NCBI RefSeq assembly: GCF_027533845.1
Contig: NZ_JAPZVN010000027.1
Coordinates: forward strand, 1-64,000
Reading direction: 5' to 3'
From: Streptomyces sp. RPT161
Lineage (GTDB): Bacteria > Actinomycetota > Actinomycetes > Streptomycetales > Streptomycetaceae
Length of the DNA: 64,000 nucleotides
Shown: positions 9,317-54,965 of the stretch, piece by piece
Numbering within the stretch: the stretch's first letter is position 1
Layout: the number at the start of each line of letters is the position of its first letter
The notes under the pieces: model-generated
What the model saw: the letters and a program-made list of their open reading frames with translations, nothing else
The model's database searches: none
Told to the model about the DNA's origin: nothing
Translations under genes and position numbers: made by a program

Positions 9317-9665
9317 AAGGGTTCCCTCCGATGTCTCGGCAACAGGCCTTGGCGGCAGTCCACATGAAGTATGAAACTGTACGAAAAACCCGATCCCTCC
9401 ACTTGAGGACGTGTCAGGCGGTACAGACAGCCCGAAAGCAGTACGCCACCACCCGTACTCCGGTCAGCAGTGCGAATCGCCGCTCTGGCGTACGGGTCAC
9501 CCGCTTGACTGGAGTGTGGTGGCCGCCGAAGTGGGTCTTCGCGGCGGGGGAGAGGCGGGGACCAGCAGTCGACCAGCACGGTCAGGCCCTGACGGAGCGC
9601 GTGCGCAGGCGCATTCGGGGTGACCGGTGTTCGCCGGGTTCCGGGATCGGCCACCGGGCGTCGTT
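9317..9665. promoter_or_regulatory. Upstream region of the amidohydrolase gene, no gene seen
   Basis: About 350 bases without a supportable ORF. The ribosome site GGAGGG of the 9316 start lies at its left edge. A relatively AT-rich patch around 9365-9395 (TATGAAACTGTACGAAAA) is the most promoter-like part for the leftward gene. The short word GTAC recurs several times between 9385 and 9500 without forming a convincing operator. Confidence 0.35.
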
Positions 9666-9693
9666 GGCCCCCGCCGGGCGACCGGCGGGGGCC
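9666..9693 (-). terminator. Strong GC hairpin after the DUF4232 gene
   Basis: Perfect 12-bp stem, GGCCCCCGCCGG (9666-9677) and CCGGCGGGGGCC (9682-9693), around a GCGA tetraloop. It lies 13 bases beyond the stop of the minus-strand DUF4232 gene, the expected place for an intrinsic terminator. There is no long T-run, as is common in streptomycetes. Confidence 0.8.
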
Positions 9694-9706
9694 AGGGCGG
9701 GCGCCG

Positions 9707-10252
9707 CTATGCGACGTTGATGGACCGCGTGAAGGCGGTCACGGACAAGTCGCCGTTGGTGACGATGTGGTTGAACGGAATGGTCAGGTGACCGCGGGAG
9801 GCGGGCGGGGTGACCTCCAGGTAGGCGGCCCGCACCATGCGCGGTGCGTCGGCGTCGGCCCACACCAGGTCCGCCTCGGCGGACTGGCCGGGGCGCAGCA
9901 CGATGGTCTTGGCACCCGGGTCGGGCACGAAGTAGGTGGCGCCCCAGCGGGTGTGGGTGGTCTGCGACTGGTGGTGGCCGTTCTCCAACCGCAGCCCCGG
10001 GTAGCCGCGCAACGCGCAGGTGCGGCCCGAGGTGTTCTTCAGCACCAGCACCTTGCCTATGTGCGACATGCCGGCCTGGCCGCCGCGGCCCTTGTCCACC
10101 AGCGAGGCGTGCAGACCGGAGGTGGTACAGGTGGCGGCGCCGCGCGCGGCGGGTGCCGCGGCGGCGACCCCGGAGGCGGCGAGGACGGTCCCGGCGGCGA
10201 GTGCGATTCCCGCGGTGACCGCGGCCGTCTTGCGAGCGCTGTTCCGCATCAT
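9707..10252 (-). CDS. Secreted DUF4232-family protein
   Basis: A 181-residue secreted protein. It has a basic N-terminus, a hydrophobic signal core (AAVTAGIALAAGTVLAA) and an Ala-rich cleavage region, followed by a DUF4232 domain recognisable from TCTTSGLHASL, the two Cys (CTTSG and TCALRGYPGL) and the LKNTSGRTCALRGYPG segment. The function of DUF4232 is unknown; it is a beta-sandwich domain abundant in actinobacterial secreted proteins. The start at 10252 (Met-Met) is preceded by GAAGGAG at seven bases, better than the longer open frame to 10300. A strong terminator follows at 9666-9693. Confidence 0.85.
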   Translation of the reverse strand: MMRNSARKTAAVTAGIALAAGTVLAASGVAAAAPAARGAATCTTSGLHASLVDKGRGGQAGMSHIGKVLVLKNTSGRTCALRGYPGLRLENGHHQSQTTHTRWGATYFVPDPGAKTIVLRPGQSAEADLVWADADAPRMVRAAYLEVTPPASRGHLTIPFNHIVTNGDLSVTAFTRSINVA

Positions 10253-10602
10253 CGGATGGCTCCTTCGGTGTGTTTCGGGTACCGGCCGCCCATGGGGCAC
10301 AAGGGGCGCGCCGCGCCCAACGGTGCGCGGGCGGCCTCATCCGTCACTTTGCGGGATGGATGTAGCGGTTCTGCCACACGCTCGTAACCGCTTCTCGCCG
10401 TTGTTCCGGGGCAGTTATCGTGACGGGCCGTCAATGCAGGCCGGGCGTACGGCGGTTACTCGCGCCCTGCGCGCGGCGGGCTCGGGCACGGCACGCCCTG
10501 CTCCGTACCGCCCGCTCACTGGTACCGCGTCTTCGATGGTAGGGCGTCCGGCCCGGATCGGCTCCCGCACGGTCCGCGACCAGCACCCGTATCCTTGCCG
10601 AC
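10253..10602. promoter_or_regulatory. Divergent intergenic region with an inverted repeat
   Basis: This 350-base gap separates the leftward DUF4232 gene from the rightward phosphatase gene and shows no ORF I can support. AGCGGTT (10364-10370) pairs with AACCGCT (10386-10392) over a 15-base spacer, a possible operator. Just before the phosphatase start, GTATCCT at about 10588-10594 resembles a -10 element, which would give a nearly leaderless transcript. Confidence 0.35.
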
Positions 10603-14220: not shown

Positions 14221-15441
14221 ATGGGCTTGGCAGGGCGGAAGTCAGAGTCGTCGCATGTGACGACGCTCGCGGTGGACAACTACCGGTCGCTGCGGCACCT
14301 CGTCGTCCCGTTGGGCCCGCTCAGCGTGGTGACCGGCGCCAACGGCAGCGGCAAGTCCAGCCTCTACCGCGCGCTGCGGCTGCTCTCCGACGCCGCGCGG
14401 AACGGTGCCGTGGCGGCGCTGGCCCGTGAGAGCGGGCTGACCTCGACCCTGTGGGCCGGTCCGGAGAAGGTCGGCAGCCAACCCGCGCGCCCCACGGCCC
14501 GCGTCGAGCCGGTCAGTCTGCGGCTGGGCTTCTCCGGCGGCCAGGACGACTTCGGATACGCCGTCGACCTCGGCCAGCCCTCGGGGGGTGCCGGCGCGTC
14601 GGCGGGGGAGCGGACGATGTTCGGCTCCGACCCGGAGACCAAACGCGAGAGCGTGTGGAGCGGCCCGGTGCTGTGCCCGGCCGCAATGCTCGCCGAGCGG
14701 CACAACGGCGCGGTCCGCATCCGCGACACCGACGGAGCCTGGTCGCACCAGAACCACCCCATCCGTCCGTACGACAGCATGCTCAGCGAGTTCGCCGACC
14801 CGCAGGACGCGCCCGAGGCGCTCCGGCTGCGCGACCGCATCCGCTCCTGGCGGTTCTACGACCACTTCCGCACCGACGCCGCCGCACCGGCCCGCGGCAG
14901 CCATGTCGGCACCCGCACCCCGGTCCTCAGCCACGATGGGGCGGACCTGGCGGCGGCGTTGCGGACGATCCGGGAGATCGGTGACCGCACGGCGCTGGAC
15001 ACCGCCATCGGCCTGGCCTTCCCCGGCAGCCAGCTCACCGTCGCCGACCACGCCGGGCGCTTCGACCTCCAGCTGCGGCAGCCCGGCCTGCTGCGTCCGC
15101 TACGGGCCGCGGAGCTGTCCGACGGGACGCTGCGCTACCTGCTGCTCGTCGCCGCGCTGCTCACCCCGCGCCCACCGGAGCTACTGGTGCTCAACGAGCC
15201 CGAGACCATCCTGCACCCGGAACTGCTGCCCCCGCTGGCCCAGCTCATCACGATGGCCGCGGCACACTCGCAGGTCATCGTGGTCTCCCACTCCCAGCCG
15301 CTGACCCACGCCGTGCAGCGGCTGGCCGTCGACGACGCGCCGGAAGTCACGACCATCCAGCTTGTCAAGGAGCACGGGCGGACGCGGGTCGTCGGCCAGG
15401 GGCCGCTGGACGAGCCCGCCAGGCACTGGCCGAAGCGCTGA
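14221..15441 (+). CDS. AAA-family ATPase (RecF/OLD-like, AAA_21)
   Basis: A 406-residue ATPase of the SMC/RecF/OLD-related AAA_21 type. Walker A is GANGSGKSS (39-47) directly after a DNYRSLRHL strand typical of RecF-like proteins. The signature-like ELSDGTLRYL, Walker B LLVLNEPETILHPELLPPL and the switch His in VVSHSQPL follow in the expected order near the C-terminus. No TOPRIM nuclease domain is present, so it is shorter than OLD nucleases. Its cellular role is unknown; relatives occur in DNA repair and phage defence. GTG 14257 (VTTLAVDNYR) is an equally possible start. It stands alone on its strand after a pseudogene. Confidence 0.8.
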   Translation: MGLAGRKSESSHVTTLAVDNYRSLRHLVVPLGPLSVVTGANGSGKSSLYRALRLLSDAARNGAVAALARESGLTSTLWAGPEKVGSQPARPTARVEPVSLRLGFSGGQDDFGYAVDLGQPSGGAGASAGERTMFGSDPETKRESVWSGPVLCPAAMLAERHNGAVRIRDTDGAWSHQNHPIRPYDSMLSEFADPQDAPEALRLRDRIRSWRFYDHFRTDAAAPARGSHVGTRTPVLSHDGADLAAALRTIREIGDRTALDTAIGLAFPGSQLTVADHAGRFDLQLRQPGLLRPLRAAELSDGTLRYLLLVAALLTPRPPELLVLNEPETILHPELLPPLAQLITMAAAHSQVIVVSHSQPLTHAVQRLAVDDAPEVTTIQLVKEHGRTRVVGQGPLDEPARHWPKR

Positions 15442-15790
15442 CGGCCGATTGGAGACAGACGACAGCCCCCGGTGCTCCATGTCGATGCCGTGAACCTCAG
15501 TCGTCGCCGACGGTTCCAACACCGGCATGTGCTTCTGCCGGGGGCCTAACCAGAGCCTCGATGGGGGTCACTCGGGTCGACAGACGTCTCTGCCAACGGG
15601 ATGCGGCTCTCTCTGGTTTTCTGGTGTATTGCTATTTTCGTCACTATTTGTCCGGAGTCAAGGGCTGCGCCGAAGATTTCACTCCCTGGCCGCGGCTACG
15701 GGGAGTGCCGGGAATTTAACTAAAGGATCACGGCGGCGTAGCCTGGGGCTGGGACTTTTGGGGGGCCAAGGGCGACCCCGGAGGCGCACT
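15442..15790 (+). other. Long leader/intergenic region, no gene seen
   Basis: About 350 bases. GCCCCCGG near 15464 can pair with CCGGGGGC near 15537-15544, enclosing a weaker internal symmetry (CATGTCGATGCCG and CCGGCATGTG), so a folded RNA or terminator is possible. From about 15595 to 15725 the sequence is clearly AT-richer (GTGTATTGCTATTTTCGTCACTA), the likely promoter zone for the zinc-ribbon gene. No tRNA-like T-arm lies in the right place. Confidence 0.35.
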
Positions 15791-15991
15791 ATGGCTGAAG
15801 CCGCTGAAGCTATGGAGTCGTGGCCGTGTCGGAACTGCGGTGAGACGGATCCGGAGAAGGTGCGCTGGACCGAGCCGGAATTCGCGGTGAGGACCGACAC
15901 CGAAGGCCACCAGACGATGTACGTCTACGCCGCGCTGATGGAGTGCGCCACCTGCGGCACCAGGTGCCGGGTGATCCTGGAGGGTGACTGA
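15791..15991 (+). CDS. Small zinc-ribbon protein
   Basis: A 66-residue protein with CRNCGE near residue 13 and CATCGTRC near residue 52, i.e. two CxxC knuckles that would bind one zinc. Between them is an acidic segment ending TMYVYAALME. GGAGG sits six to seven bases before the ATG. I do not recognise a named family. It resembles small zinc-finger proteins of streptomycetes with unknown partners. It ends eight bases before the convergent end of the APC permease gene. Confidence 0.65.
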   Translation: MAEAAEAMESWPCRNCGETDPEKVRWTEPEFAVRTDTEGHQTMYVYAALMECATCGTRCRVILEGD

Positions 15992-15998
15992 CGTACCG

Positions 15999-17600
15999 TC
16001 AACTCCGCTCGCTCCGCACCGCGGTGTCCACCGCATCGGACGGCAACGCGAGCCGCACCGCGGTGTAGTGCACGGCCAGGCTGAACGCGATCACGACCAG
16101 CAGGTCCCACCAGCCGGGCAGCGCGCGGGTGCCGCCGTACCGGCCGAAGCGGCAGATGACCACCAGGCCGCCCAGCCACGGCCACACCCAGGCCGCCGAC
16201 CGCCAGCGCAGCACGCCCCGGTCGCCCACCGGGATCCCCCTGCGGGTGACCGCCAGCACGACGAGCCCGAACAGCACGACGGCGGCGAGCTTCCAGTCGG
16301 CCTGGTACCCGGACCAGTAGAAGATCAGGTTGGCGAAGACGAACCCCGCCGGAGCCAGCACCGACCCGGCGGGCAGCCGGTACGGGCGCGGTCGTGCGCT
16401 GTCCCGTACCCGTAGCGCGTGCAGTGCCACCGGCGCGAAGGCGTACATGACCGCCGCCGCCGAGGTGACCACGCTGACCAGCGCCTGCCAGCTGGGGAAC
16501 GGCAGGAATGCCAGCTCACCGACGACGAACGCGAGCAGCACCGAGACCACCGGCACACCCCGGCGGCCCACCGCGGCGACCGGCGCGGGCAGCACCCGCT
16601 GCCGTCCCATCGCGTACGACAGCCGAGCGGCCCCCGCCATGTAGACCAGCCCGGTGCCCGCGGGGGAGACGACCGCGTCGACGTAGAGCACGACCGCCAG
16701 CCAGGCGGCACCGAGCGCGGTCGCCAGAGTGGCGTACGGCCCGAAGTCGCCCCTGCCGACCGGGCTGGCCCAGCCGTGGCTCACCGCCGAGGGCTCCAGC
16801 GCCGCGATGAAGGCGATCTGCAGCAGCAGGTAGACCGCGGTGCCGATGGCCATGGCGACGATCACCGCCCGGGAGACGTCCCGCTGCGGGTCACGTGCCT
16901 CGCCGGCCAGTTGGATGGCCTGCTCGAAGCCCAGGAAGGCGAACACCACACCGGCGGGCAGCGCCGCGAAGACACCGTGCGCCCCGTGCGGGGCGAAGCC
17001 GCCTCCCGCGGTGAAGTTCGCACCGTGGAAGGCCAGCGACATCAGCACCGCCACGGTCAGCAGCGGCACCGCGGTCTTCAGGACCACGGTGACCGAGTTG
17101 GTGGAGGACAGCAGCCGCACGCCGAGGATGTTGACGACCGTGAACAGCAGCATGAAGCAACTGGCGATCACCAGACCCGCGAGGGTGAGGGTGCCGTTCG
17201 GATGCAGGATGTGCACCCGGTCGTGGACCCAGCCGATGCGGTCCGAGTAGGAGAGGGTCGCCTCCACCTCGATCGGCGAGATCATCACGGACCGCAGCCA
17301 GGACATCCACCCCGCGGTGAAGCCGACCAGCGGGCCGAAGGCGAAGTACGGGAACCGCGCGGTGCCGCCCGAGATCGGATACGCCGCCCCCAACTCGGCG
17401 TGCACCAGTGCCAGCACCCCGAGCATCACCGCTGCCAGCAGCCAGGACAGCAGCGACGCGGGACCGGCGATGACGGCCGTGGTGAGCGCGCCCAGCAGCC
17501 ACCCGGAGCCGATGATCGACCCGAGCGAGAGGAACATCAGGCCCCAGAACCCGACCGCCCGATGCAGCTCTCCGTCCGTGGCCGCGTTGGGGTTCGACAC
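15999..17600 (-). CDS. APC-superfamily permease
   Basis: A 533-residue membrane transporter with about twelve hydrophobic segments. The first helix shows the broken-helix signature FLSLGSIIGSGWLLGAL, and helix 6 the segment VVFAFLGFEQAIQLAGEARDP, both diagnostic of amino-acid/polyamine/organocation permeases. It probably imports an amino acid or amine by cation symport; the substrate is unknown. The GTG start (MSNPN) is 36 bases after the stop of an MmpS-like gene on the same strand, so both may be co-transcribed. Confidence 0.88.
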   Translation of the reverse strand: MSNPNAATDGELHRAVGFWGLMFLSLGSIIGSGWLLGALTTAVIAGPASLLSWLLAAVMLGVLALVHAELGAAYPISGGTARFPYFAFGPLVGFTAGWMSWLRSVMISPIEVEATLSYSDRIGWVHDRVHILHPNGTLTLAGLVIASCFMLLFTVVNILGVRLLSSTNSVTVVLKTAVPLLTVAVLMSLAFHGANFTAGGGFAPHGAHGVFAALPAGVVFAFLGFEQAIQLAGEARDPQRDVSRAVIVAMAIGTAVYLLLQIAFIAALEPSAVSHGWASPVGRGDFGPYATLATALGAAWLAVVLYVDAVVSPAGTGLVYMAGAARLSYAMGRQRVLPAPVAAVGRRGVPVVSVLLAFVVGELAFLPFPSWQALVSVVTSAAAVMYAFAPVALHALRVRDSARPRPYRLPAGSVLAPAGFVFANLIFYWSGYQADWKLAAVVLFGLVVLAVTRRGIPVGDRGVLRWRSAAWVWPWLGGLVVICRFGRYGGTRALPGWWDLLVVIAFSLAVHYTAVRLALPSDAVDTAVRSERS

Positions 17601-42685: not shown

Positions 42686-42799
42686 GGGACGGCCCTCCAG
42701 CGCGTCGGTCTCGCCGACGACTTCGGCATCACCGAACGGGCCGGCGGCCCGAACCTCGGCCTGCCGCACTTCACCCTGGCCAACTGCCACCACCGCAGC

Positions 42800-42958
42800 C
42801 ACCCCGCGCAAACCCAGGCCCTGCACCGCTACCTGCGCTGGCGCAACGCCAACTCCCGCCACCCCGACGTACTTGCCGCCCAACGCAAGGAACGCGCCCG
42901 CATCCGCAGCGAGAAGGGCATCCGCTGGCGCGGACGCCCCCTCAACGCCGCAGCCTGA
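42800..42958 (+). pseudogene. C-terminal scrap of a probable transposase
   Basis: The last 52 codons of an open frame read ALHRYLRWRNANSRHPDVLA and AQRKERARIRSEKGIRWRG before a stop at 42958. Basic tails of this kind occur at the end of actinobacterial transposases as I remember them. No catalytic DDE region and no terminal inverted repeats are visible. It is probably what is left of an insertion that disrupted this stretch. Confidence 0.4.
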
Positions 42959-43030
42959 CCGACGCGAACCGCAGCCCCCGGAGTGCCGAAAGGGACAAGT
43001 TCACGAGAAGGACAGCGACAGAAGGACGAC

Positions 43031-43621: not shown

Positions 43622-43857
43622 CGCGGGCGCGGCGGGCAGCGACACCACCATCGTCAGGCCGCCGCCCGGCGTGTCCTCGGGCAGGAGGGTGCCGCCCATC
43701 GCCTCGGTGAAGCCCCGGGAAAGCGCGAGGCCGAGTCCGAGGCCGGTGGTGTCGTCGGTGTCTCCCAGCCGTTGGAAGGGTTCGAACCCCCGAGGAAGAC
43801 CTTCAGCCGACCGGGCCGGGTATCTGGCGGGTCGGCCGCGACATCGCTGTTGGCCAC
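43598..43857 (-). pseudogene. kdpD deletion remnant
   Basis: On the minus strand a GTG at 43857 with an intact GGAGAG ribosome site starts a KdpD-like N-terminus: DTRPGRLKVFLGG, the segment that should lead into the Walker A motif. Instead the sequence jumps, out of frame, to the C-terminal end of a KdpD kinase: GFEPFQRLGDTDDTTGLGLG, LALSRGFTEAMGGTLLPEDT and PGGGLTMVVSLPAAP, with a stop at 43598. About 90% of the gene is missing between the two parts. Compared with the intact kdpD at 52437-54965, both ends match closely, so this is an internally deleted, frameshifted copy of the same gene type. Confidence 0.88.
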
Positions 43858-44047
43858 CGGGAACTCTCCTCGATCCGTACGGTGTCTCTTTGTCCATATC
43901 GTGGCGCCGCCAGGACCAGCTCAAAGGGGCGGATCGGCGATGTTGACACGATTCTGACCCCCGGGCGTGCGGCCGGCCCGCCATGACCGGCTCGCCGGTA
44001 CGCGCCAGGTCAGCGACCCTGTAAGCAGGGAGACGGGAGGTACCGCC

Positions 44048-44797
44048 ATGCGTCGCTTCCTGCACAGGGACCTCGCCGCGATCGTGGCCGGGCTGGTGGC
44101 TCCGCTGGCCGTGGCCGCGGCGCTGGTATCCGCCCGTGCGCACATCTCCAACACCGACGTGGCGCTGGTACTGGTCGTGGTCATCGTCGCGGTGGCCGCC
44201 ATCGGGCACCGCGTGGCGGGTGCACTCGCGGCGCTGTCGGCCGCCGCCTGGTTCGACTTCTTCTTCACCCGGCCGTACGAGCGGTTCGCCATCACCAAGT
44301 CCGCGGACATCCGTACGGCGGTGCTGCTGCTACTGGTGGGCCTCGCGGTCTCCCAGCTGGCGGCGCGTGCCAGGCGGCTGAAGGTGATCACGGTCACCGA
44401 CGCCCAGTACCTCGGAGCGATCCATGCCACCGCGGCCCGGGCGCAGACCGCGACCTCAGCGGCCCAGGTGGTCGACCAGGTCAAGCGGCAGCTGACCGAA
44501 CTGCTCCAGCTGCGCGACTGCCGCTTCGAGTACGGATCACTGCTGGGCCACCCCGCGCAGCTGCGCCCGGACGGCAGCGTGCTGGTCGGGCGCCGGAGCT
44601 GGGACGTCGACCAGCAGGGGCTGCCGGACGAGGAGATCGAGCTGCGCGCGTTCGGCAACGGCCGCTACCTCGGCCGGTTCATGATGCGTCCGGCACAGGG
44701 CGCCAAACCACCGCTACAGGCCCGTCTGGTCGCGGTCACCCTGGCCGAACAGGCCGGATCGGCCCTCGACACGGCGGGCACGACGCTGGAGGACTAG
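44048..44797 (+). CDS. Stand-alone DUF4118 membrane protein
   Basis: A 249-residue protein with four hydrophobic segments in its first 120 residues (AAIVAGLVAPLAVAAALVS, VALVLVVVIVAVAAIG, the ALAALSAAAWFDFFF segment and AVLLLLVGLAVSQLA). The phrase AAWFDFFFTRPYERFAI is typical of the DUF4118 transmembrane domain otherwise found inside KdpD. The remaining 120 residues are cytoplasmic and resemble the linker/GAF part without kinase motifs. GGGAGG lies seven bases before the ATG. It is convergent with a degenerate kdpD paralogue, and the two may work together in sensing. Confidence 0.8.
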   Translation: MRRFLHRDLAAIVAGLVAPLAVAAALVSARAHISNTDVALVLVVVIVAVAAIGHRVAGALAALSAAAWFDFFFTRPYERFAITKSADIRTAVLLLLVGLAVSQLAARARRLKVITVTDAQYLGAIHATAARAQTATSAAQVVDQVKRQLTELLQLRDCRFEYGSLLGHPAQLRPDGSVLVGRRSWDVDQQGLPDEEIELRAFGNGRYLGRFMMRPAQGAKPPLQARLVAVTLAEQAGSALDTAGTTLED

Positions 44798-44827: not shown

Positions 44828-47311
44828 TCACTCGCAGCGGTGGGCGGAGGTCGGGAAGATCAGGGTCACGGAGAACGCGGGGCCGCTCGTCGCGGGCTCC
44901 AGGGTGCCGCCCATCGCCTCCGTCAGGTCACGTGCCAGCCGCAGCGCCAGACTGTCCGACCTGGCGTCAGGGGCGCTGGCCGGGGGCGTGTTGTCCGCGA
45001 TGCCGTCGGTGACCTGGATCAGCAGCCGGTCGGGCAGTACTTCGGCGGTCAGCGTCGGAGGTCGGCCCTCGGGGCTGTGCCGCAGTGCGTCCGCGCTCAG
45101 GGCCGTGAGGGTGCGGGTCAGCGCGGCGGCGTCGGCGATGACGTCGGGCGTCCGCTCCGGTAGTTGGAGCAGTATGGTGTGGCGGCCGGGACCGAGGTCG
45201 TCCAGGGCCGCTGCCAGCACCTCGTCCAGGTCGACCGGGCGCAGGTACAGATCGAGCGCCCCGGCGTGCAGGCGGCCCAACCGGTCTAGGTCGGCGACGA
45301 GTTGGACGGCCCGATGCACCGCCGACAGCGCCGAGTCGAGCAACTGGTCCCGCTCCGCGGCCGAGGCGCCGGGCTCCCGTAGTCGCGCCAGCGCCGTCTG
45401 CGCCGAGTGCAGCGGGGACCGCAGATCGCGCCCCGCGGTCATCAGCAGTGAGGTACGGGTGCGTTCGGCCGCGGCGCGGTTGTCCGTCTCGGCGGCGCGC
45501 CGGGCCAGTCGGCCGTGAACGTGCGCCAGCCCCAACTGCGCCGCGCACGCGGCGAGCACCCGCTGGTCATCGGCGCTCAGCGGACGGCCGCGCGCGGCCA
45601 GCGTGAGGTCGTCGGTCACCGGACTCTCGACGTCCGCCTCGTACGGACGCTCCGCAGGACGCTCGCCCGCGCTGGCTACCACGTACCAGCGCGGCCGTGG
45701 TCCGTTCGCCCGGTCGCGTTCCAGGAGACTGACCGCGGTCAGGCCGAAGTACTCACGTACCAGTTCCAGCAGGGTGGGCAGGTTCTGCCCGTGCATCATG
45801 GCGGTCGCCAGACGGCTCAGGGCCCTCGCCTCCGTGGTGGCCCGCAGGGCCTGGTACGTACGCCGGGCGGCGGTTCCGGCGGCCGTGCCGACGAGCGTGG
45901 CGGTGACGATGAACACGACCAGCGCCACGACGTCGTTGAGGCGCTCGATGTCCAGCGAGTGCACGGGCGGGGTGAAGTAGTAGTCGGTCAGCATCCCGGC
46001 GGCGACCGCGGCGATCAGCGCCGGATACAGGCCGCCGACGAGCGCGATCACCACGATCGCCAGCATGTACAGCACGAGGTCGATGGCGAGACCGAGGTGG
46101 CCGCGCAGTGCCACCAGCACGGCGGTCAGCGCGGGCAGCAGCAGCACCGTGGCGGCCATCGCCGACCAGTAGCGGCGCGGCCCGGTGCCTCTGGTCGGGT
46201 GCGGTGGCCGCACCAACGGGGTGGCCGCACCGGCCGCCTCCTCGTGGGTGACGATGTGCACGTCGATGGGGCCCGAGCCGTCGATGGTGCGCTTGCCCAC
46301 GCCCGCCCGCAACAGTGAGCGCAGTCGGCCCCGGCGGCTGGCGCCCAGCACGATCTGGGTGACGTTCTCGGCCTGGGCGAACTGCAACAGCGCCTCGACG
46401 GTGTCCTCGCCGGTGGTCTGGTGGTAGCTGCCGCCCAGTGCCTCCACCAGGGTCCGCTGTTCGGCCAGCGCCGCGGGGTCGGCGTCGGCCAGCCCGTCGC
46501 TGGGGACGACGTGTACGGCCAGCAGTTCGCTGCCCGGCGTCTTGGCGGTGATCCGGGCGGCGCGGCGGATCAGCGTCTCACCCTCCGGGCCACCGGTCAG
46601 ACCGACCAGGATCCGCTCCCGGGTCTCCCACGGCGCGGCGATCCCGTGCTCCGCGCGGTACCGCTGCAGCCCCTCCTCCACCCGGTCGGCCAGCCACAGC
46701 AGGGCCAGTTCGCGCAGCGCGGTGAGGTTGCCGACCCGGAAGTAGTGGGTGAGCGCGGTCTCGATGCGGTCCGGCGGGTAGATGTCCCCGTGCGCCAGCC
46801 TGCGGCGCACCACCTCTGGCGGCAGATCGACCAACTCGATCTGGTCGGCCCGCCTGGCCACCTCGTCGGGAAGCGTTTCCTGCTGTCTGATCCCGGTGAT
46901 CTGCTCGACCACGTCGTTGACGGACTCCAGATGCTGGACGTTGAGCGTGCTGACCACGTCGACGCCCGCTGCCAGCAGTTCCTCGACGTCCTGCCACCGC
47001 TTGGCGTTGCGCGATCCCGGTACGTTGGTGTGGGCCAGCTCGTCGACCAGGGCGACCTGGGGGAGGCGGGCCAGCACCGCGTCCAGGTCCATCTCGGTGA
47101 AGTCGCTGCCGCGGTAAGTGAGGCTCCGGCGGGGGACGGTCTCCAGGCCCTCGGCCAGGGCCATGGTCGGCCGCCGCCCGTGCGGTTCGAACAGTCCGAT
47201 CACCACGTCGGTGCCCTGGGAGCGCAACCGCTGGCCCTCCTTGAGCATGGCGTAGGTCTTGCCGACCCCTGGGGCGGCCCCGAGGTAGATCCGCAGACGC
47301 CCACGCGCCAT
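44828..47311 (-). CDS. KdpD paralogue with degenerate histidine-kinase domain
   Basis: An 827-residue KdpD-type protein. The N-terminal sensor half is intact: Walker A GAAPGVGKT (11-19), VALVDELAHTNVPGSRN and the universal-stress domain to about residue 370. Four membrane segments and a GAF-like region follow. The kinase half is eroded. The phosphoacceptor motif expected as SHDLRTP reads GRDLRSP, with Arg628 in place of His. The N-box NAVRHSP is DALRHSP. The G1 box DxGxG and the F box are missing, and the G2 GLGLGLA is SLALRLA. It is full length and in frame, so it is probably an expressed pseudokinase or regulator rather than debris. It reads away from kdpFABC. Confidence 0.87.
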   Translation of the reverse strand: MARGRLRIYLGAAPGVGKTYAMLKEGQRLRSQGTDVVIGLFEPHGRRPTMALAEGLETVPRRSLTYRGSDFTEMDLDAVLARLPQVALVDELAHTNVPGSRNAKRWQDVEELLAAGVDVVSTLNVQHLESVNDVVEQITGIRQQETLPDEVARRADQIELVDLPPEVVRRRLAHGDIYPPDRIETALTHYFRVGNLTALRELALLWLADRVEEGLQRYRAEHGIAAPWETRERILVGLTGGPEGETLIRRAARITAKTPGSELLAVHVVPSDGLADADPAALAEQRTLVEALGGSYHQTTGEDTVEALLQFAQAENVTQIVLGASRRGRLRSLLRAGVGKRTIDGSGPIDVHIVTHEEAAGAATPLVRPPHPTRGTGPRRYWSAMAATVLLLPALTAVLVALRGHLGLAIDLVLYMLAIVVIALVGGLYPALIAAVAAGMLTDYYFTPPVHSLDIERLNDVVALVVFIVTATLVGTAAGTAARRTYQALRATTEARALSRLATAMMHGQNLPTLLELVREYFGLTAVSLLERDRANGPRPRWYVVASAGERPAERPYEADVESPVTDDLTLAARGRPLSADDQRVLAACAAQLGLAHVHGRLARRAAETDNRAAAERTRTSLLMTAGRDLRSPLHSAQTALARLREPGASAAERDQLLDSALSAVHRAVQLVADLDRLGRLHAGALDLYLRPVDLDEVLAAALDDLGPGRHTILLQLPERTPDVIADAAALTRTLTALSADALRHSPEGRPPTLTAEVLPDRLLIQVTDGIADNTPPASAPDARSDSLALRLARDLTEAMGGTLEPATSGPAFSVTLIFPTSAHRCE

Positions 47312-47690: not shown

Positions 47691-47774
47691 ATGTCGGACC
47701 TTCTCTTCATCGGCCTCATCATCGTGGTCTTCGCCCTCATCGGGCTGGCCGCCAAGGGGGTGCGGCGGCTGTGA
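47691..47774 (+). CDS. 27-residue membrane peptide upstream of kdpF
   Basis: A tiny ORF, ATG 47691 to TGA 47774, encoding one hydrophobic helix flanked by an acidic start and a basic end (MSDLLFIGLIIVVFALIGL, then AAKGVRRL). This is the shape of a single-pass membrane micropeptide with its C-terminus inside. Its stop overlaps the GTG of kdpF by four bases (GTGA), so translation is coupled. I recall a similar short ORF before kdpF in other streptomycetes, usually unannotated. It may be a second small subunit of the Kdp complex. The ribosome site is weak. Confidence 0.6.
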   Translation: MSDLLFIGLIIVVFALIGLAAKGVRRL

Positions 47775-47860
47775 GCGTCGAAAACATCGTGGGCCTGATC
47801 GTCGCCGTGGCCCTGGTGCTGTATCTGGTGTTCTGCCTGATCTTCCCCGAGAAGTTCTAG
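47771..47860 (+). CDS. kdpF: Potassium-transporting ATPase subunit KdpF
   Basis: A 29-residue membrane peptide ([19 protein letters not shown], then [10 protein letters not shown]), the standard length and ending of actinobacterial KdpF. It stabilises the KdpABC complex in the membrane. The GTG start overlaps the stop of the preceding micropeptide. kdpA follows 37 bases later with its own ribosome site (GGAGAGG). It is too short to be caught by most gene finders. Confidence 0.88.
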
Positions 47861-47897: not shown

Positions 47898-49562
47898 ATG
47901 AACGAAACTCTCGCGGGCTGGCTCCAGATCCTCGCCCTGGTGGGCGCGCTGGCCCTGTCCTTCCGGCCGCTGGGCGACTACATGGCCCATGTCCTCACCT
48001 CCCCCCGGCACTGGCGGGTGGAGCAGCTGGTGTACCGGATCGGCGGTGTGCGGGGGGACGCCGACCAGACGTGGCCCGCCTACCTACGCAGCGTGCTGAC
48101 GTTCTCCGCGGTGTCGGTGCTGTTCCTGTACGCCTTCCAGCGACTGCAGAACCATCTGCTGCTCTCCGTCGGCATGAAACCGGTGGCGCCGTCCCTGGCG
48201 TTCAACACGGCGGCGTCGTTCGTCACCAACACCAACTGGCAGGCCTACTCGGGCGAGTCGACCATGGGCCACCTGGTGCAGATGGCGGGCCTGGCGGTGC
48301 AGAACTTCGTCTCCGCCGCCGTGGGCATCGCCGTGGTCGCCGCCCTGATCCGCGGCTTCACCCGGAAGAAGACCGACCGGGTCGGCAACTTCTGGGTGGA
48401 CGTCACCCGGATCGTGCTGCGGGTGCTGCTGCCGATCGCCTTCGTGATGGCCATCGTGCTGGTCGCCGGCGGTGTGATCGAGAACTTCCACGGCATCCAG
48501 TCGATCACCACGATCGCGGGCGACCACCAGAGCATCACCGGCGGCCCGGTCGCCTCACAGGAGGCGATCAAGGAACTGGGCACCAACGGCGGCGGCTTCT
48601 ACAACGCCAACTCCGCGCACCCGTTCGAGAACCCCAACCCGTTCACCAACTGGCTTGAGATCTACCTGCTGTTGGTGATCGGCTTCTCCATGCCGCGCAC
48701 CTTCGGCACCATGGTCGGGGACCGTCGCCAGGGCTATGCCATCGTCGCCGTGATGGCTCTGATTTGGGCGGCGTCGGTGGCCATCGTGACCGCCAACGAA
48801 CTGCACAGCGTGAGCAGTTCCGCCGGGCACGCGGCCGGCGGAATGATGGAGGGCAAGGAGCAGCGGTTCGGCATCTGGGCCTCCGCGCTGTTCGCCGTGT
48901 CCACCACGCTCACCTCCTGCGGCGCGGTCGACTCCTTCCACGACTCGTACACGCCGGGCGGCGGCGGGATGACCATCTTCAACATGATGCTGGGGGAGAT
49001 CGCGCCCGGCGGCACCGGCTCCGGTCTGTACGGCATCCTGATCCTGGCGGTCGTCGCGGTGTTCGTGGCCGGACTGATGGTCGGCCGCACCCCCGAGTAC
49101 CTGGGCAAGAAGCTCGGCGCCCGGGAGATGAAGTTCGCCTCGCTGTACATCCTGACCACGCCCGGCATCGTGCTGGTGGGGGCCGGTATCGCGATGGCGC
49201 TGCCGGGGGAGCGGGCCGCGATGCTCAACGCGGGCCCGCACGGCTTCTCGGAGGTGCTGTACGCGTTCACCTCGGCCGCCAACAACAACGGCTCGGCGTT
49301 CGCGGGCCTTTCGGCCAACACCGTCTGGTACGACACCGCGCTCGGCGTGGCGATGCTGTTCGGCCGCTTCCTGCCCATCGTGTTCGTGCTGGCGCTGGCC
49401 GGGTCGCTCGCCCGCCAGCAGGCGGTGCCGGTCACCGCGGGCACGCTGCCCACCCACCGGCCGCAGTTCGTCGGCCTGCTCGCGGGTGTGATCCTCATCG
49501 TCGTTGGCCTCACCTACTTCCCCGCCCTCGCGCTGGGACCTCTCGCGGAAGGGTTGCACTGA
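47898..49562 (+). CDS. kdpA: Potassium-transporting ATPase subunit KdpA
   Basis: A 554-residue integral membrane protein of the superfamily of K+ transporters, the potassium-selective channel subunit of the Kdp pump. The four selectivity-filter-like loops are recognisable: [46 protein letters not shown] and [15 protein letters not shown]. Length is normal. The stop shares one base with the start of kdpB (TGATG). Confidence 0.96.
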
Positions 49563-51697
49563 TGCCCACGGCCACCGCTCAACCCCCCGTGTCGAAGGAC
49601 CCGTTGGCGCCCAACGTGCACCGGGTCTCCGGTGGACTGCTCGACCCCAAGCAGTTGGTGACCTCCTTTCCCGGCGCGCTGCGCAAGCTCGATCCGCGGG
49701 TGATGGTGCGGAACCCGGTGATGTTCGTCGTGGAGGTCGGCGCCGTGCTGACCACCCTGTCGGCGATCAAGGACCCGGGTGTCTTCGCCTGGGTGATCAC
49801 CGTGTGGCTGTGGCTCACCGTCGTCTTCGCCAACCTGTCGGAGGCGGTCGCCGAGGGGCGTGGCAAGGCGCAGGCGGAGACGCTGCGAAAGACGAAGACC
49901 GACACCATGGCCCGTCGGCTGCCCGCCGACTGGCGGCCGGGCGCCACCGACCTCACCGAAGAGGAGGTTCCGGCGACGGCGCTGCGGCTGGGCGACCATG
50001 TGGTGGTCGAGGCGGGCCAGGTCATCCCCGGTGACGGTGACGTTGTCGAGGGCGTCGCCAGCGTCGACGAGTCTGCGATCACCGGTGAGTCGGCGCCGGT
50101 CATCCGCGAGTCGGGCGGTGACCGCTCGGCGGTCACCGGCGGTACCAAGGTGCTGTCCGACCGGATCGTCGTGCGGATCACCTCCAAGCCGGGGGAGACC
50201 TTCATCGACCGGATGATCGCCCTGGTGGAGGGCGCGGCCCGGCAGAAGACCCCCAACGAGATCGCCCTGAACATCCTGTTGGCCTCGCTGACCATCGTCT
50301 TTCTGGTGGCCGTGGTGACGTTGCAGCCGTTCGCCATCTTCGCGGGCGCCGAACAGAGCATCGTGATCCTGGTGGCGCTGGTGGTCGCACTGATCCCGAC
50401 CACCATCGGCGCGTTGCTGTCGGCGATCGGCATCGCGGGTATGGACCGGCTGGTGCAGCGAAACGTACTGGCCATGTCCGGCAGGGCCGTTGAGGCGGCG
50501 GGCGATGTGAACACCCTGTTGCTGGACAAGACCGGCACCATCACTCTGGGCAACCGCCAGGCCGCCGAGTTCCTGCCGGTCAGTGGGGTGCTGGTGGAGG
50601 AGCTCGCGGACGCCGCCCAGCTGTCGTCCATCGCCGACGAGACGCCCGAGGGCCGCTCGGTCGTCGTGCTGGCCAAGGAGCGGTACGCGCTGCGCGGGCG
50701 CGGCGAAGGGGAGTTGGCGCACGCCGAGTTCGTCCCCTTCACCGCCCAGACCCGGATGTCGGGCGTGGACCTGGACAGTTCCGAGGACAACCGATCCCTG
50801 CGCAAGGGCGCGGCGACCGCCGTGATGCGCTGGGTCAGGGAGCACGGCGGACATCCCACCGAGGAGGTCGGCCCGATCGTGGACGGCATCTCCGCGAGTG
50901 GCGGCACACCGCTGGTCGTCGGCGAGGTCGCCCGCCACGAGGACACGAGCACCGCCCGGATCCTCGGGGTCATCCACCTCAAGGACGTGGTCAAGCCGGG
51001 TATTCGGGAGCGCTTCGAGGAGTTGCGCCGGATGGGCATCAAGACCGTGATGATCACCGGTGACAACCCGCTGACCGCTCGGGCCATCGCCGAGGAGGCG
51101 GGGGTCGACGACTTCCTCGCGGAGGCGACTCCCGAGGACAAGATGGCGCTGATCAAGCGGGAGCAGGCGGGCGGCAAGCTGGTCGCGATGACCGGTGACG
51201 GCACCAACGACGCTCCGGCGCTGGCCCAGGCGGACGTCGGTGTGGCGATGAACACCGGTACCTCGGCCGCCAAGGAGGCCGGGAACATGGTGGACCTGGA
51301 CTCCAACCCGACCAAGCTCATTGAGATCGTCGAGATCGGCAAGCAACTCCTCATCACCCGCGGCGCGTTGACGACCTTCTCCATCGCCAATGACGTGGCG
51401 AAGTACTTCGCCATCATCCCGGCGATGTTCGCCAGCGTCTATCCGGGCCTGCGTCGGCTGAACATCATGGCCCTGCACAGCCCGACCTCTGCGATCTCCT
51501 CGGCGATCATCTTCAACGCCCTGATCATCGTCGCGCTGATCCCCCTCGCCCTGCGCGGGGTGCGCTACCGGCCCTCGTCGGCGGCCTCGCTGCTCACCCG
51601 CAACATCGTGCTGTACGGCTTCGGAGGACTGGTGCTGCCGTTCATCGGCATCAAACTGATCGACCTGCTCGTCCAGTTCGTCCCCGGACTGCACTGA
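49562..51697 (+). CDS. kdpB: Potassium-transporting ATPase ATP-binding subunit KdpB
   Basis: A 711-residue P-type ATPase, the energy-coupling subunit of Kdp. The phosphorylated Asp322 is in [10 protein letters not shown]; the actuator-domain TGES motif ([10 protein letters not shown]) and the hinge [12 protein letters not shown] are intact. The membrane helix signature with [15 protein letters not shown] follows residue 275. It overlaps kdpA by one base and is 17 bases before kdpC. Confidence 0.97.
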
Positions 51698-51714: not shown

Positions 51715-52344
51715 ATGGCTGGCTCTCTCACCCGCCTGCTCCGCCACCACCTGGCGGCGCTGCGGATGCTGCTGGTGTTCACGGTCATCACGGGCATCGT
51801 CTATCCACTGGTGGTGACCGGAATCGCCCAGGCCGTCTTCCCGCACCAGGCCAACGGGTCCTTGCTAAAGGACGGAGGGCGGCCGGTCGCCTCCTCGCTC
51901 ATCGGCCAGAACTTCAACCTGCCGCCCAGCAAGGGGCAGACCACCGGCGCCCCGGACTCCAGGTGGTTCCAACCCCGGCCCTCCGCGGCCGGACCGACCG
52001 GCTACGACCCGACGAACTCCGGAGCCTCCAACCTCGGCCCCAACAACGCGGGTCTGGTCAAGGCGGTCAAGGACCGCCGGGCCGCCGTAGCCGCGTTCGA
52101 CGGCGTGCCGCCGAGCAGCGTCCCCGCCGACGCGGTCACCGCCTCGGGCTCCGGTCTCGACCCGGACATCTCACCCACATACGCCTACGAGCAGGTCAAC
52201 CGGGTGGCGAAGGCCCGCGGCCTGGACCCGGCGGCGGTACGGAAGTTGGTCGCCGAGCACGTCCAGGGCCGCAACCTCGGATTCCTGGGTCAAGAACGCG
52301 TCAATGTCGTCGTGCTCAACCACGATCTGGCCGCGTTGAAGTGA
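51715..52344 (+). CDS. kdpC: Potassium-transporting ATPase subunit KdpC
   Basis: A 209-residue protein with one N-terminal membrane helix (LLVFTVITGIVYPLVVTGIAQ) and an extracytoplasmic domain: GSLLKDGGRPVASSLIGQNF, SRWFQPRPSA, ASGSGLDPDISPTYAYEQVN and VNVVVLNHDLAALK. These are standard KdpC landmarks. It assembles with KdpA and KdpB and raises ATP affinity. AAGGAAG lies before the ATG. Confidence 0.96.
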   Translation: MAGSLTRLLRHHLAALRMLLVFTVITGIVYPLVVTGIAQAVFPHQANGSLLKDGGRPVASSLIGQNFNLPPSKGQTTGAPDSRWFQPRPSAAGPTGYDPTNSGASNLGPNNAGLVKAVKDRRAAVAAFDGVPPSSVPADAVTASGSGLDPDISPTYAYEQVNRVAKARGLDPAAVRKLVAEHVQGRNLGFLGQERVNVVVLNHDLAALK

Positions 52345-52436
52345 CGATGAAACGGAACCCAACTGCACACAGCACGCCGCCCAGGTGAGCTCCCCCTCGC
52401 CCGGGCGGCGTGCCGTCCGGTCAAGGAGGGCTCCGG

Positions 52437-54965
52437 GTGACGCGGAGCATCGGCACGGCCGCCACGCCTGGCGGCCGACCCGGCAGGCTGAAGGTCTTCC
52501 TCGGCGCCGCGCCCGGGGTCGGCAAGACCTACCGGATGCTGGACGAAGGGCGCCGCCGGGCCCGCCGCGGCACCGATGTGGTGGTGGCCTACGCCGAGTG
52601 CCACAACCGTCCGCACACCGAGGAGATGCTGGTCGGCCTGGAGCTGCTGCCCAGGACCCGGCGCCAGTACCGGGGGCGGGAGTTCGAGGAGATGGACCTG
52701 GACGCGGTCCTCGCACGCCGCCCCGAAGTGGCGCTCGTTGACGAGCTACCGCACACCAACATCCCCGGCGGACGGCACGCCAAGCGCTGGCAGGACGTCG
52801 AGGAACTGCTCGCCGCCGGAATCGACGTGCTCACCACGGTCAACATCCAGCACCTCGAGTCGCTCAACGACGTGGTGGAGAAGATCACCGGGGTGCCGCA
52901 GCGGGAGACCCTGCCCGACGAGATAGTCCGCCGCGCCGAGCAGATCGAACTGGTCGACATGCCCGCCGAGGCGGTGCGCCGCCGGATGGCGCACGGCAAC
53001 ATCTACGGCCCGGACAAGGTCGACGCGGCGCTGTCGCACTACTTCCGGGTGGGAAACCTCACCGCGCTGCGGGAGTTGGCGCTGCTGTGGGTCGCGGGCC
53101 GGGTGGACGAGACGTTGCAGCGGTACCGCAGCGAGCACGCCATCGGCGGGGTGTGGGAGACCCGTGAGCGCGTCGTGGTGGCGCTGACCGGCGGGCCGGA
53201 GGGCGAGACGCTGATCCGCCGCGCGGTGCGCATCGCCAGCCGGGCCTCCGGTGGAGATCTGCTCGCCGTCCATGTGGTGCGCAGCGACGGGCTCTCCGGC
53301 GCGTCTCCGGCCGCCCTCGCCAGGCAGCGCAAGCTGGTGGAGAGCCTGGGCGGCAGCTTCCACTCCGTAGTCGGCGACCATGTGCCCACCGCGCTGCTGG
53401 AGTTCGCCCGCGCGGAGAACGCCACCCAGTTGGTGCTCGGCACGAGCCGCCGCAACCGGCTGGAGCACCTGCTGAACGGGCGCGGCATCGGCGAGACCAC
53501 CGTCGAGCTGTCCGGTGACATCGACGTGCACATGGTGACCCATGAACGGATGGGCCGTGGACGCCGGTTGGCGGTCTCCGGCGTCCGGGCGCCGCTGGTG
53601 CGGCGGATCGCCGGGGCGGTCGCCGCGGTGCTGCTGCCGGTACTGCTGACCGTGGCACTGCGTGGCGTCGGCAGCGGGCTGAACCTCACCAGCCAGGCGC
53701 TGCTGCTCCTGCTGACCGTGGTGGGGGTCGCGGCGATCGGCGGTGTCGGCTCGGCACTGCTGGCCGCGGTCACCGCCTCCCTGCTGCTGAACTACTACTT
53801 CATCCCGCCCGTCGGCGAGTTCACCATCACCGAGCCCAACAACGTCCTGGCCCTGGCCGCGTTCGCCATAGTGGCGGTAACGGTAGCCGCCATCGTGGAC
53901 CGCTCGCAGCGGCTGGCCCGGCGGGCGGCGAACGCCACCGCCGAGGCGGAGACCCTGTCGTCCATGGCGGGCAACATCCTCGGCGGTGACCAGGCGGTGG
54001 AGGTGCTGCTGGACCGGACGCGGGAGACGTTCGGCATGGACTCCGCGGAGTTGCTGCCGCGCACCGCACCGGACGACGAAGCCCCGGACGACACGGCGGT
54101 ACTGAGGGTTCCGGTGGGCGAGAACAGCCTTCTGGTGCTCAGGGGGCGCAGGTTGCCCGCCTCCCAGCACCGGGTGGTGACCGCCTTCGCCGCCCACCTG
54201 GCCGCCGCGCTGGACCGGGCCCGGCTGGCCGAGACCGCCGCCGAGGTCGAGCCGGTCAAGGCCGCCGACCGTACCCGTACCGCGCTGCTCGCCGCGGTCA
54301 GCCATGATCTGCGCACCCCGCTGGCCAGCGGCCTGGCCGCGGTCACCTCGCTGCGCGGCGCGGACGTGGAGTTCTCCGCCGAGGACCGGGACGAGCTGCT
54401 GGCAACCGCCGAGGAGTCGCTCGTCAAGCTCAACCGGCTGGTGGACAACCTGTTGGACATGAGCCGTCTACAGGCCGGTGCGCTGCCTGTGCACCTCCAG
54501 CCCACCGGGTTCGAGGACGTCATGCCGCTGGCCCTGGACTCGCTGCCGCCGACCTGCGTGCCCGTACAGACCCAGGGGCTCGACCGGACCGGTGAAGTGA
54601 TCGCCGATCCACCGCTGTTGGAGCGGGTCATCGCCAACCTGGTGCTCAACGCGGTACGCCACTCGCCCGGGGGCCGACCGGTGCTCGTCAGCGCCAGCAC
54701 CCTCGCCCACCACGTCGAACTGCGGGTCACCGACCACGGCCCGGGACTGCCGGAGCAGGACCGGGATCGGGTCTTCGAGCCGTTCCAGCGGCTCGGCGAC
54801 CACGACAACAACGCCGGCCTCGGTCTGGGACTGGCCCTGTCCCGTGGCCTGGCGGAGGCGATGGGCGGCACCCTCACCGCCGAGGACACTCCGGGCGGCG
54901 GACTGACCATGGTGCTCTCGCTGCCCGCCGCACCCACCAGCCGCGAGGGCGCGGATCCGGCGTGA
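52437..54965 (+). CDS. kdpD: Sensor histidine kinase KdpD
   Basis: An 842-residue sensor kinase with the full KdpD layout: N-terminal KdpD domain with Walker A GAAPGVGKT (23-31), universal-stress domain, four membrane helices (about 390-490, including LLLNYYFIPPVGEF of DUF4118), GAF-like linker and kinase. Catalytic motifs are intact: SHDLRTPLAS with His623, NLVLNAVRHSP, DHGPG, VFEPFQRLGD and GLGLGLALSRG. It senses low K+ and osmotic stress and phosphorylates KdpE. GTG 52437 follows AGGAGG. kdpC ends 92 bases upstream. No kdpE follows, which is unusual. Confidence 0.95.
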   Translation: MTRSIGTAATPGGRPGRLKVFLGAAPGVGKTYRMLDEGRRRARRGTDVVVAYAECHNRPHTEEMLVGLELLPRTRRQYRGREFEEMDLDAVLARRPEVALVDELPHTNIPGGRHAKRWQDVEELLAAGIDVLTTVNIQHLESLNDVVEKITGVPQRETLPDEIVRRAEQIELVDMPAEAVRRRMAHGNIYGPDKVDAALSHYFRVGNLTALRELALLWVAGRVDETLQRYRSEHAIGGVWETRERVVVALTGGPEGETLIRRAVRIASRASGGDLLAVHVVRSDGLSGASPAALARQRKLVESLGGSFHSVVGDHVPTALLEFARAENATQLVLGTSRRNRLEHLLNGRGIGETTVELSGDIDVHMVTHERMGRGRRLAVSGVRAPLVRRIAGAVAAVLLPVLLTVALRGVGSGLNLTSQALLLLLTVVGVAAIGGVGSALLAAVTASLLLNYYFIPPVGEFTITEPNNVLALAAFAIVAVTVAAIVDRSQRLARRAANATAEAETLSSMAGNILGGDQAVEVLLDRTRETFGMDSAELLPRTAPDDEAPDDTAVLRVPVGENSLLVLRGRRLPASQHRVVTAFAAHLAAALDRARLAETAAEVEPVKAADRTRTALLAAVSHDLRTPLASGLAAVTSLRGADVEFSAEDRDELLATAEESLVKLNRLVDNLLDMSRLQAGALPVHLQPTGFEDVMPLALDSLPPTCVPVQTQGLDRTGEVIADPPLLERVIANLVLNAVRHSPGGRPVLVSASTLAHHVELRVTDHGPGLPEQDRDRVFEPFQRLGDHDNNAGLGLGLALSRGLAEAMGGTLTAEDTPGGGLTMVLSLPAAPTSREGADPA

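Follow-up and report, generated by a model that had tools for sequence, protein, structure and literature searches.

The KdpD of E. coli, a tandem serine/histidine kinase, was described in 2024 as an atypical serine kinase that phosphorylates S162 of the KdpB subunit and inhibits the pump (PMC11018627). According to that paper, the serine kinase depends on the Walker A motif, on D109/E110 of Walker B and on the paired residues W39/R190, and neither H673 nor the DHp/CA domains are needed for this activity. KdpDs with a nonfunctional histidine kinase are also described in it, as a short KdpD/Usp form from D. geothermalis and as forms with truncated DHp/CA domains. They occur mostly in species without KdpE, which is a statistical association and not a definition (PMC11018627). 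In the survey as set out there, only a full-length KdpD meeting both of its requirements was included for species with multiple variants, and a full-length form with the histidine kinase killed in place may therefore be uncounted. A second comparison is provided by DivL, RetS and the evolved frameshift form of ChrS, in which the histidine kinase fold is kept, catalysis is lost and an intact paralogue is present in the cell. These proteins act on a partner histidine kinase, and the Corynebacterium ChrS pseudokinase works through its paralogous kinase, as described in PMC9491836.

Herein, a KdpD homologue, called PK, is analyzed in a window of 64,000 nucleotides from the start of contig NZ_JAPZVN010000027.1 of Streptomyces sp. 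RPT161. The PK gene is located on the minus strand at 44828-47311, starts with ATG and runs for 827 codons with zero internal stops. The domain order, KdpD-Usp-membrane-GAF-DHp-CA, is the same as in the E. coli protein. The KdpD domain, the predicted atypical serine kinase, covers residues 1-211 (46679-47311; PF02702, 319.5 bits) and contains the Walker A motif GAAPGVGKT starting at residue 11, with G17, K18 and T19, the Walker B pair Asp90-Glu91 and the adenine residue R171. It is followed by the Usp domain (residues 230-345, 46277-46624; PF00582, 40.2 bits) and the DUF4118 membrane sensor (residues 386-490, 45842-46156; PF13493, 79.6 bits), and all three scores are above the cut-off. The histidine kinase half is degenerate. 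Within the DHp domain (residues 615-690, 45242-45469), Arg628, encoded by CGC in the context GRDLRSP, occupies the phosphoacceptor His site. Within the CA domain (residues 691-827, 44831-45241), the N-box reads SADALRHS with Asp741 replacing Asn, the G1 and F boxes are gone and G2 reads SLALRLA. The earlier note had reported these motif changes together with the Walker A motif and the unbroken frame, and all of them were confirmed by direct reading and alignment.

The Pfam scores agree with the degeneration. HATPase_c reaches 16.5 bits in PK against a cut-off of 26.4, compared with 100 bits in the intact KdpD encoded nearby, and it is below the cut-off in all three PKs that were scanned with Pfam. 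HisKA is barely over its cut-off (28.5 versus 26.9 bits), and annotation by domain presence can thus name such proteins sensor histidine kinases. The helical DHp and the element order of the CA domain are preserved in the predicted structures, which are given little weight since each was built from a shallow alignment of 18 rows (pTM 0.30 and 0.35). A PDB structure search returned the KdpD N-domain 2r8r as the top match, followed by many histidine kinases, DivL and RetS among them. Taken together, the motifs point to a dead histidine kinase and a predicted live serine kinase within one protein.

PK is divergent from a series of kdp genes on the plus strand, namely a 27-aa membrane ORF (47691-47774), kdpF (47771-47860), kdpA (47898-49562), kdpB (49562-51697), kdpC (51715-52344) and an intact kdpD (52410-54965). 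The GTG start of kdpF, read directly from the sequence, overlaps the stop of the 27-aa ORF. A scan of 11 orthologue loci found this ORF in 10, the exception being L014; it may be a leader or a small subunit missed by annotation. KdpB contains the TGES motif with the equivalents of E. coli E161/S162. The intact KdpD, 5.1 kb from PK, has all histidine kinase boxes and no adjoining kdpE, and no kdpE-type regulator was found when the 64-kb window was searched. The source genome (7.69 Mb in 139 contigs) has three kdpB genes and three full-length KdpDs besides PK. One is the KdpD in the window, and the other two, on contigs C118 and C13, are each followed by KdpE.

On the other side, PK adjoins a stand-alone DUF4118 membrane protein (43967-44797, plus strand; 66.1 bits), which amounts to a second sensor half without a kinase. 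Similar stand-alone DUF4118 proteins were seen near other kdp loci (L095 11962-12696, L009 17343-18050, L016 17407-17622 and L131 1653-2339). Beside the DUF4118 gene, a fragment of a kdpD C-terminus is located on the minus strand at about 43625-43810. Over 64 columns it matches the intact KdpD encoded in the window at 77% identity, and it scores 34 bits for HATPase_c, as a relic of another KdpD. A reading frame at 42700-42960 (plus strand) has no Pfam match; it resembles the tail of an IS transposase and may mark a rearrangement behind the relic. Another C-terminal KdpD fragment, of 33 residues and 82% identical to PK residues 789-821, was found on another contig of the source genome, at G000:C52:698838-698936 (L005).

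Twelve orthologues of PK, 71-88% identical, were collected from Streptantibioticus and Streptomyces (L007-L017 and L032; L031, on the same contig as L017, was left out), which together with the window gives 13 PKs. The remaining full-length KdpDs of the orthologue sets are 46-52% identical to PK. For comparison, 41 canonical KdpDs were used after removal of the incomplete L053 and L055. The dead ATP site is common to all 13 PKs, with the N-box Asn changed to Asp and G1, F and G2 lost. The His column is R in eight, H in four (L010, L012, L013 and L014) and N in one (L015), and it is H in 41 of 41 canonical KdpDs. The alignment indicates that only some members have lost the His, and that this happened repeatedly if no later regain took place. 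Arg628 was therefore rejected as the defining conserved change, since the site varies among R, H and N (a deeper relative has S); what unites the group is the dead ATP site. The earlier note had asked whether the H-to-R form is conserved, which holds for eight of the 13.

The serine kinase residues were well conserved. In the alignment, all 13 PKs retain the equivalents of E. coli G36, K37, T38, D109, E110 and R190. The W39 site is Tyr in all 13, as in 36 of the 41 canonical actinobacterial KdpDs. When an invariant column was defined as one at least 95% identical across the 41 canonical KdpDs, PKs retained 92% of the invariant-column cells in the KdpD domain, 89% in Usp, 100% in a 7-column linker, 59% in TM, 71% in the GAF/linker, 57% in DHp and 43% in CA. 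The claim in the earlier note of a well-preserved sensor half stands, with a near-canonical N-terminal half. The HxxxT motif serves the phosphatase activity of histidine kinases toward the response regulator. At its last position, 10 PKs have A, two have S and one has T, versus T in 40 and S in one of the canonical KdpDs, and a retained phosphatase role on KdpE is unlikely.

The PK form was found in at least 3 of 121 genomes of the family, all three belonging to the genus of the window, and in at least 3 of 150 from the genus to which L007 belongs, including the centre genome and one deeper relative. These counts are lower bounds, with a cut-off of 1e-250 and few candidates scored per genome. 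Carriage on plasmids was also considered, and no record above 60% identity was present among 382 matching at 1e-50.

Evolutionary rates were measured domain by domain by comparing the PKs with one KdpE-linked canonical KdpD from each of the same 13 genomes. The tree lengths of PK versus canonical were 0.757/0.580 (1.3-fold) for the KdpD domain, 1.975/1.466 (1.35-fold) for TM and 1.611/1.168 (1.4-fold) for GAF, and they rose to 1.11/0.384 (2.9-fold) for Usp, 2.815/0.937 (3.0-fold) for CA and 2.921/0.370 (7.9-fold) for DHp. By tree length, no domain is shorter than DHp among the canonical KdpDs, and none is longer than it among PKs. By raw distance, TM and CA slightly exceed DHp in PKs, and the PK/canonical ratios of raw mean distance are 1.3 for KdpD, 2.2 for Usp, 1.5 for TM, 1.8 for GAF, 4.9 for DHp and 2.1 for CA. 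The DHp distance exceeds the KdpD-domain distance in 78 of 78 PK pairs versus 8 of 78 canonical pairs, which are not independent pairs, and in five of five PK versus one of five canonical pairs when disjoint pairs were taken.

The dN/dS values (Nei-Gojobori) follow the same division. In three Streptantibioticus PK pairs, dN/dS is 0.11-0.15 for the KdpD domain, 0.25-0.53 for DHp and 0.28-0.37 for CA; a comparison of the two halves was proposed in the earlier note. The DHp of canonical KdpDs gives 0.03-0.07 in the matched set and 0.06-0.10 in a second set. Among the nine PK pairs listed, dN/dS is below 1 for every domain, the highest value being 0.91 (GAF in one pair with a dS of 0.05) and the next 0.53. 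In all nine listed pairs the KdpD-domain value of PK is above its canonical match, which indicates that this domain is somewhat relaxed too. Usp is the most accelerated domain outside the histidine kinase half, with a degree of relaxation similar to that of CA. The CA domain of PKs, with dN/dS of 0.26-0.47 and conserved blocks remaining, is not neutral, and the dead half thus still has some role, perhaps dimerization.

These data are best read, with a probability of about 0.62, as a KdpD that would work only as a serine kinase and switch off the neighboring pump. On the parts kept versus the parts lost in the sequence, such control of the adjoining pump is the simplest account. The predicted activity, target and signal are modeled on the KdpDs of E. 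coli and D. geothermalis as described in PMC11018627. The N-terminal KdpD domain would bind ATP via Walker A/B, and the membrane/GAF sensors or the Usp domain would report enough K+ (or c-di-AMP). PK would then phosphorylate KdpB of the adjoining KdpFABC at its TGES serine and the pump would be turned off. The histidine kinase half would no longer bind ATP or pass phosphate to KdpE and would be a shell, and a KdpDE pair from another locus would take care of kdp transcription. The relaxed Usp, the rise of KdpD-domain dN/dS, the coexisting KdpDE and the deeper relatives with no kdp genes in the flanking DNA (L136 and L137) or with kdpB at about 10 kb (L135) count against this reading, and the conserved blocks of CA imply a function of the shell that this account leaves unexplained. 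The TGES serine itself is present in 42 of 42 KdpB-bearing loci examined and thus does not discriminate between the readings.

The neighborhood was compared across the 13 loci, and kdpA lies within about 3 kb of PK in all of them. PK lies upstream of kdpA in the same orientation in six (L007, L008, L009, L011, L014 and L016) and is divergent from it in seven. In five of the co-directional loci the gap from the PK stop to the small ORF is 149-170 bp, and in L014 there are 323 bp to kdpA. In the divergent L010, L012 and L013, 2.2-3.0 kb separate PK from the small ORF preceding kdp. An intact KdpD directly past kdpC is found in the window only, that is in one of the 12 PK loci with at least 2.4 kb on that side; L015 is outside this count since its sequence stops inside kdpB. 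The intact KdpD of the window was accordingly ruled out as part of the PK system. In L016 (Streptomyces sp. ADI95-17), the kdpB beside PK is in pieces at 14590-16529, by a frameshift or a sequencing error.

Another full-length KdpD is present in every PK genome examined (11 of 11, plus G000 and G001), and the 13 matched KdpDs retain the His and the N-box Asn. KdpE adjoins KdpD in 12 of 12 loci of the PK genomes (L080-L091); a further KdpD in the genome of L016 (L092), about 14 kb from PK, has no KdpE within 1.5 kb. KdpDE pairs are therefore encoded elsewhere in these genomes, and an absence of KdpE does not mark them. Beside the PK kdp operon, a KdpE-like gene is found in one of the 12 loci (S. 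ferralitis, G001) and in a deeper relative from Streptomyces (G248), which ruled out the proposition that PK loci never carry KdpE. In the S. ferralitis regulator (L150 5400-6107), the phosphoacceptor Asp is changed to Ser and the acidic pocket reads DG for DD. In the G248 protein, the pocket reads EH for DD and the phosphoacceptor Asp is uncertain owing to an insertion around the site. Both keep the DNA-binding domain, and their receivers score 80.0 (G001) and 73.3 (G248) bits versus 97-103 bits in three canonical KdpEs (Pfam cut-off 30.2).

Compared with E. coli KdpD, PK thus has conserved serine kinase residues, a histidine kinase inactivated in place and no adjoining KdpE in 11 of 12 loci. 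Like the KdpDs with a nonfunctional histidine kinase in PMC11018627, it keeps the serine kinase; unlike them, it is full length, its DHp/CA domains are mutated rather than truncated, and it coexists with KdpDE. Relative to the short or truncated forms, a full-length KdpD whose histidine kinase was inactivated in place, in a genome that also has KdpDE, is new. The earlier note held that, to its author's knowledge, a natural KdpD pseudokinase beside a working one had not been described in detail; no description of a KdpD pseudokinase was found in searches of the open-access PMC literature, but the short and truncated KdpDs mean that loss of the histidine kinase was already known. The PK lineage can be regarded as a natural separation-of-function experiment, in which the histidine kinase is dismantled, the serine kinase and the membrane/GAF sensors evolve at near normal rates and KdpDE is retained. 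As to the physiological weight of the serine versus the histidine kinase of KdpD, this lineage makes the purpose of the serine kinase testable in laboratory streptomycetes.

An alternative is that PK is a pseudo-histidine kinase that tunes transcription, either as a heterodimer with KdpD or by binding to KdpE. This is compatible with the intact frame, the helical DHp in the low-confidence model, the intact KdpD in every PK genome, the structure matches to DivL and RetS among many other histidine kinases, and the precedents of DivL, RetS and the laboratory-evolved ChrS form. In PK, however, the DHp is poorly conserved and there is another kinase domain in the protein. The DHp would carry the dimer and KdpE contacts. 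A conserved partner interface is expected there, and DHp is instead the most accelerated domain of PK relative to canonical (2.921 versus 0.370). The intact KdpD directly past kdpC in a single locus of 12 also speaks against this alternative, and the retention of Walker A/B is left unexplained. The alternative is thus unlikely, and the proposal in the earlier note that PK titrates or tunes the KdpD 5 kb away, or KdpE, was not supported by the same locus count and the DHp acceleration (7.9-fold, or 4.9-fold by raw distance). PK is probably a dedicated off-switch of the pump rather than a decoy for KdpD/KdpE.

Less likely still is a noncatalytic sensor of c-di-AMP or K+, or a scaffold, acting on KdpFABC without phosphorylation. 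The Usp and membrane domains are retained and the source genome encodes a diadenylate cyclase, which would suit such a sensor. To our knowledge, neither c-di-AMP nor K+ sensing requires the Walker A/B residues, yet these are kept in 13 of 13 PKs, and Usp is the fastest domain outside the histidine kinase half. Control by a c-di-AMP riboswitch was also tried as a candidate, and none was found at gathering score in the window, L007, L010 or L017. The earlier note saw selection on a noncatalytic protein: PK is indeed dead as a histidine kinase and not decaying across 13 genomes, but "noncatalytic" is probably wrong since the conserved N-terminal domain is the one described as a serine kinase in PMC11018627.

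A decaying pseudogene or an assembly artifact is highly improbable. DHp, CA and Usp are relaxed and the relic of a kdpD C-terminus (about 43625-43810) is close by, but all 13 PKs, from separate assemblies, are free of internal stops, dN/dS is below 1 in the nine listed pairs and the linkage to kdp is conserved. Recent decay or assembly error in the window, which the earlier note expected to leave canonical orthologues, is ruled out by the 12 orthologues; the boxes are missing from all 13 PKs, and only the His survives, in four. Least probable of all is a working histidine kinase with unusual motifs, for which the His in four of 13, the CA element order in the model and the HisKA score of PK could be cited, against the N-box Asn gone and G1, F and G2 absent in 13 of 13, HATPase_c under the cut-off in three of three and the His changed to R or N in PKs and S in a deeper relative.

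Phylogenetic analysis was extended to deeper relatives with a dead histidine kinase. The G248 relative, 57% identical to PK, carries Ser in place of the His and lacks the boxes, and it sits beside the same class of kdpAB (87%). The genome also encodes another KdpD-like protein, which stops short of DHp/CA. Other relatives have N-termini 65-66% identical, with L135 and L137 lacking the membrane part and L136 lacking everything past Usp. All five deeper relatives, which have lost TM, DHp or the entire C-terminus, retain the GKT of Walker A, the DE of Walker B and the Arg; at the W39 site, L131_trunc has Cys and L136 has Phe. A kdpB lies about 10 kb from the relative in L135, and no kdp genes were found in the flanking DNA of L136 and L137 (12.8 kb for L137). 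In L137, the TM-less KdpD is divergent from a Na+/H+ exchanger (203 bits), the two genes being located at 6533-8080 and 8220-10418.

PKs and the deeper relatives form one clade in the tree of KdpD-plus-Usp columns (SH-aLRT 93; 18 rows with a dead histidine kinase). In a more careful tree of the same columns, from which L131_trunc, as the longest branch, was removed together with three PKs and several canonical rows, the clade has support of 95/94 (14 such rows and 30 others). The deeper branches are long and poorly supported, and the membership of L135-L137 is therefore less certain than that of PK. In the midpoint-rooted KdpB tree, the main clade of KdpBs from other loci excludes 13 of the 14 that are linked to PK, the exception being S. 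sparsogenes (L014/L112), and the three subgroups of the PK tree appear again, joined differently. As a tentative scenario, a KdpDE of a second locus may have become a post-translational switch, with the sensor serine kinase kept and the regulator lost or turned, as the altered receivers of S. ferralitis and G248 would suggest, into a phosphorylation-independent DNA binder. The lineage may later have shed TM, DHp and CA elsewhere in the actinobacteria, and in places it may have moved away from the kdp locus, as beside the Na+/H+ exchanger, and come to phosphorylate other transporters.

A second kdp locus was also seen in the S. rubrisoli sequence (L017), and two M-box magnesium riboswitches are located near it, at 15343-15516 and 16166-16342.
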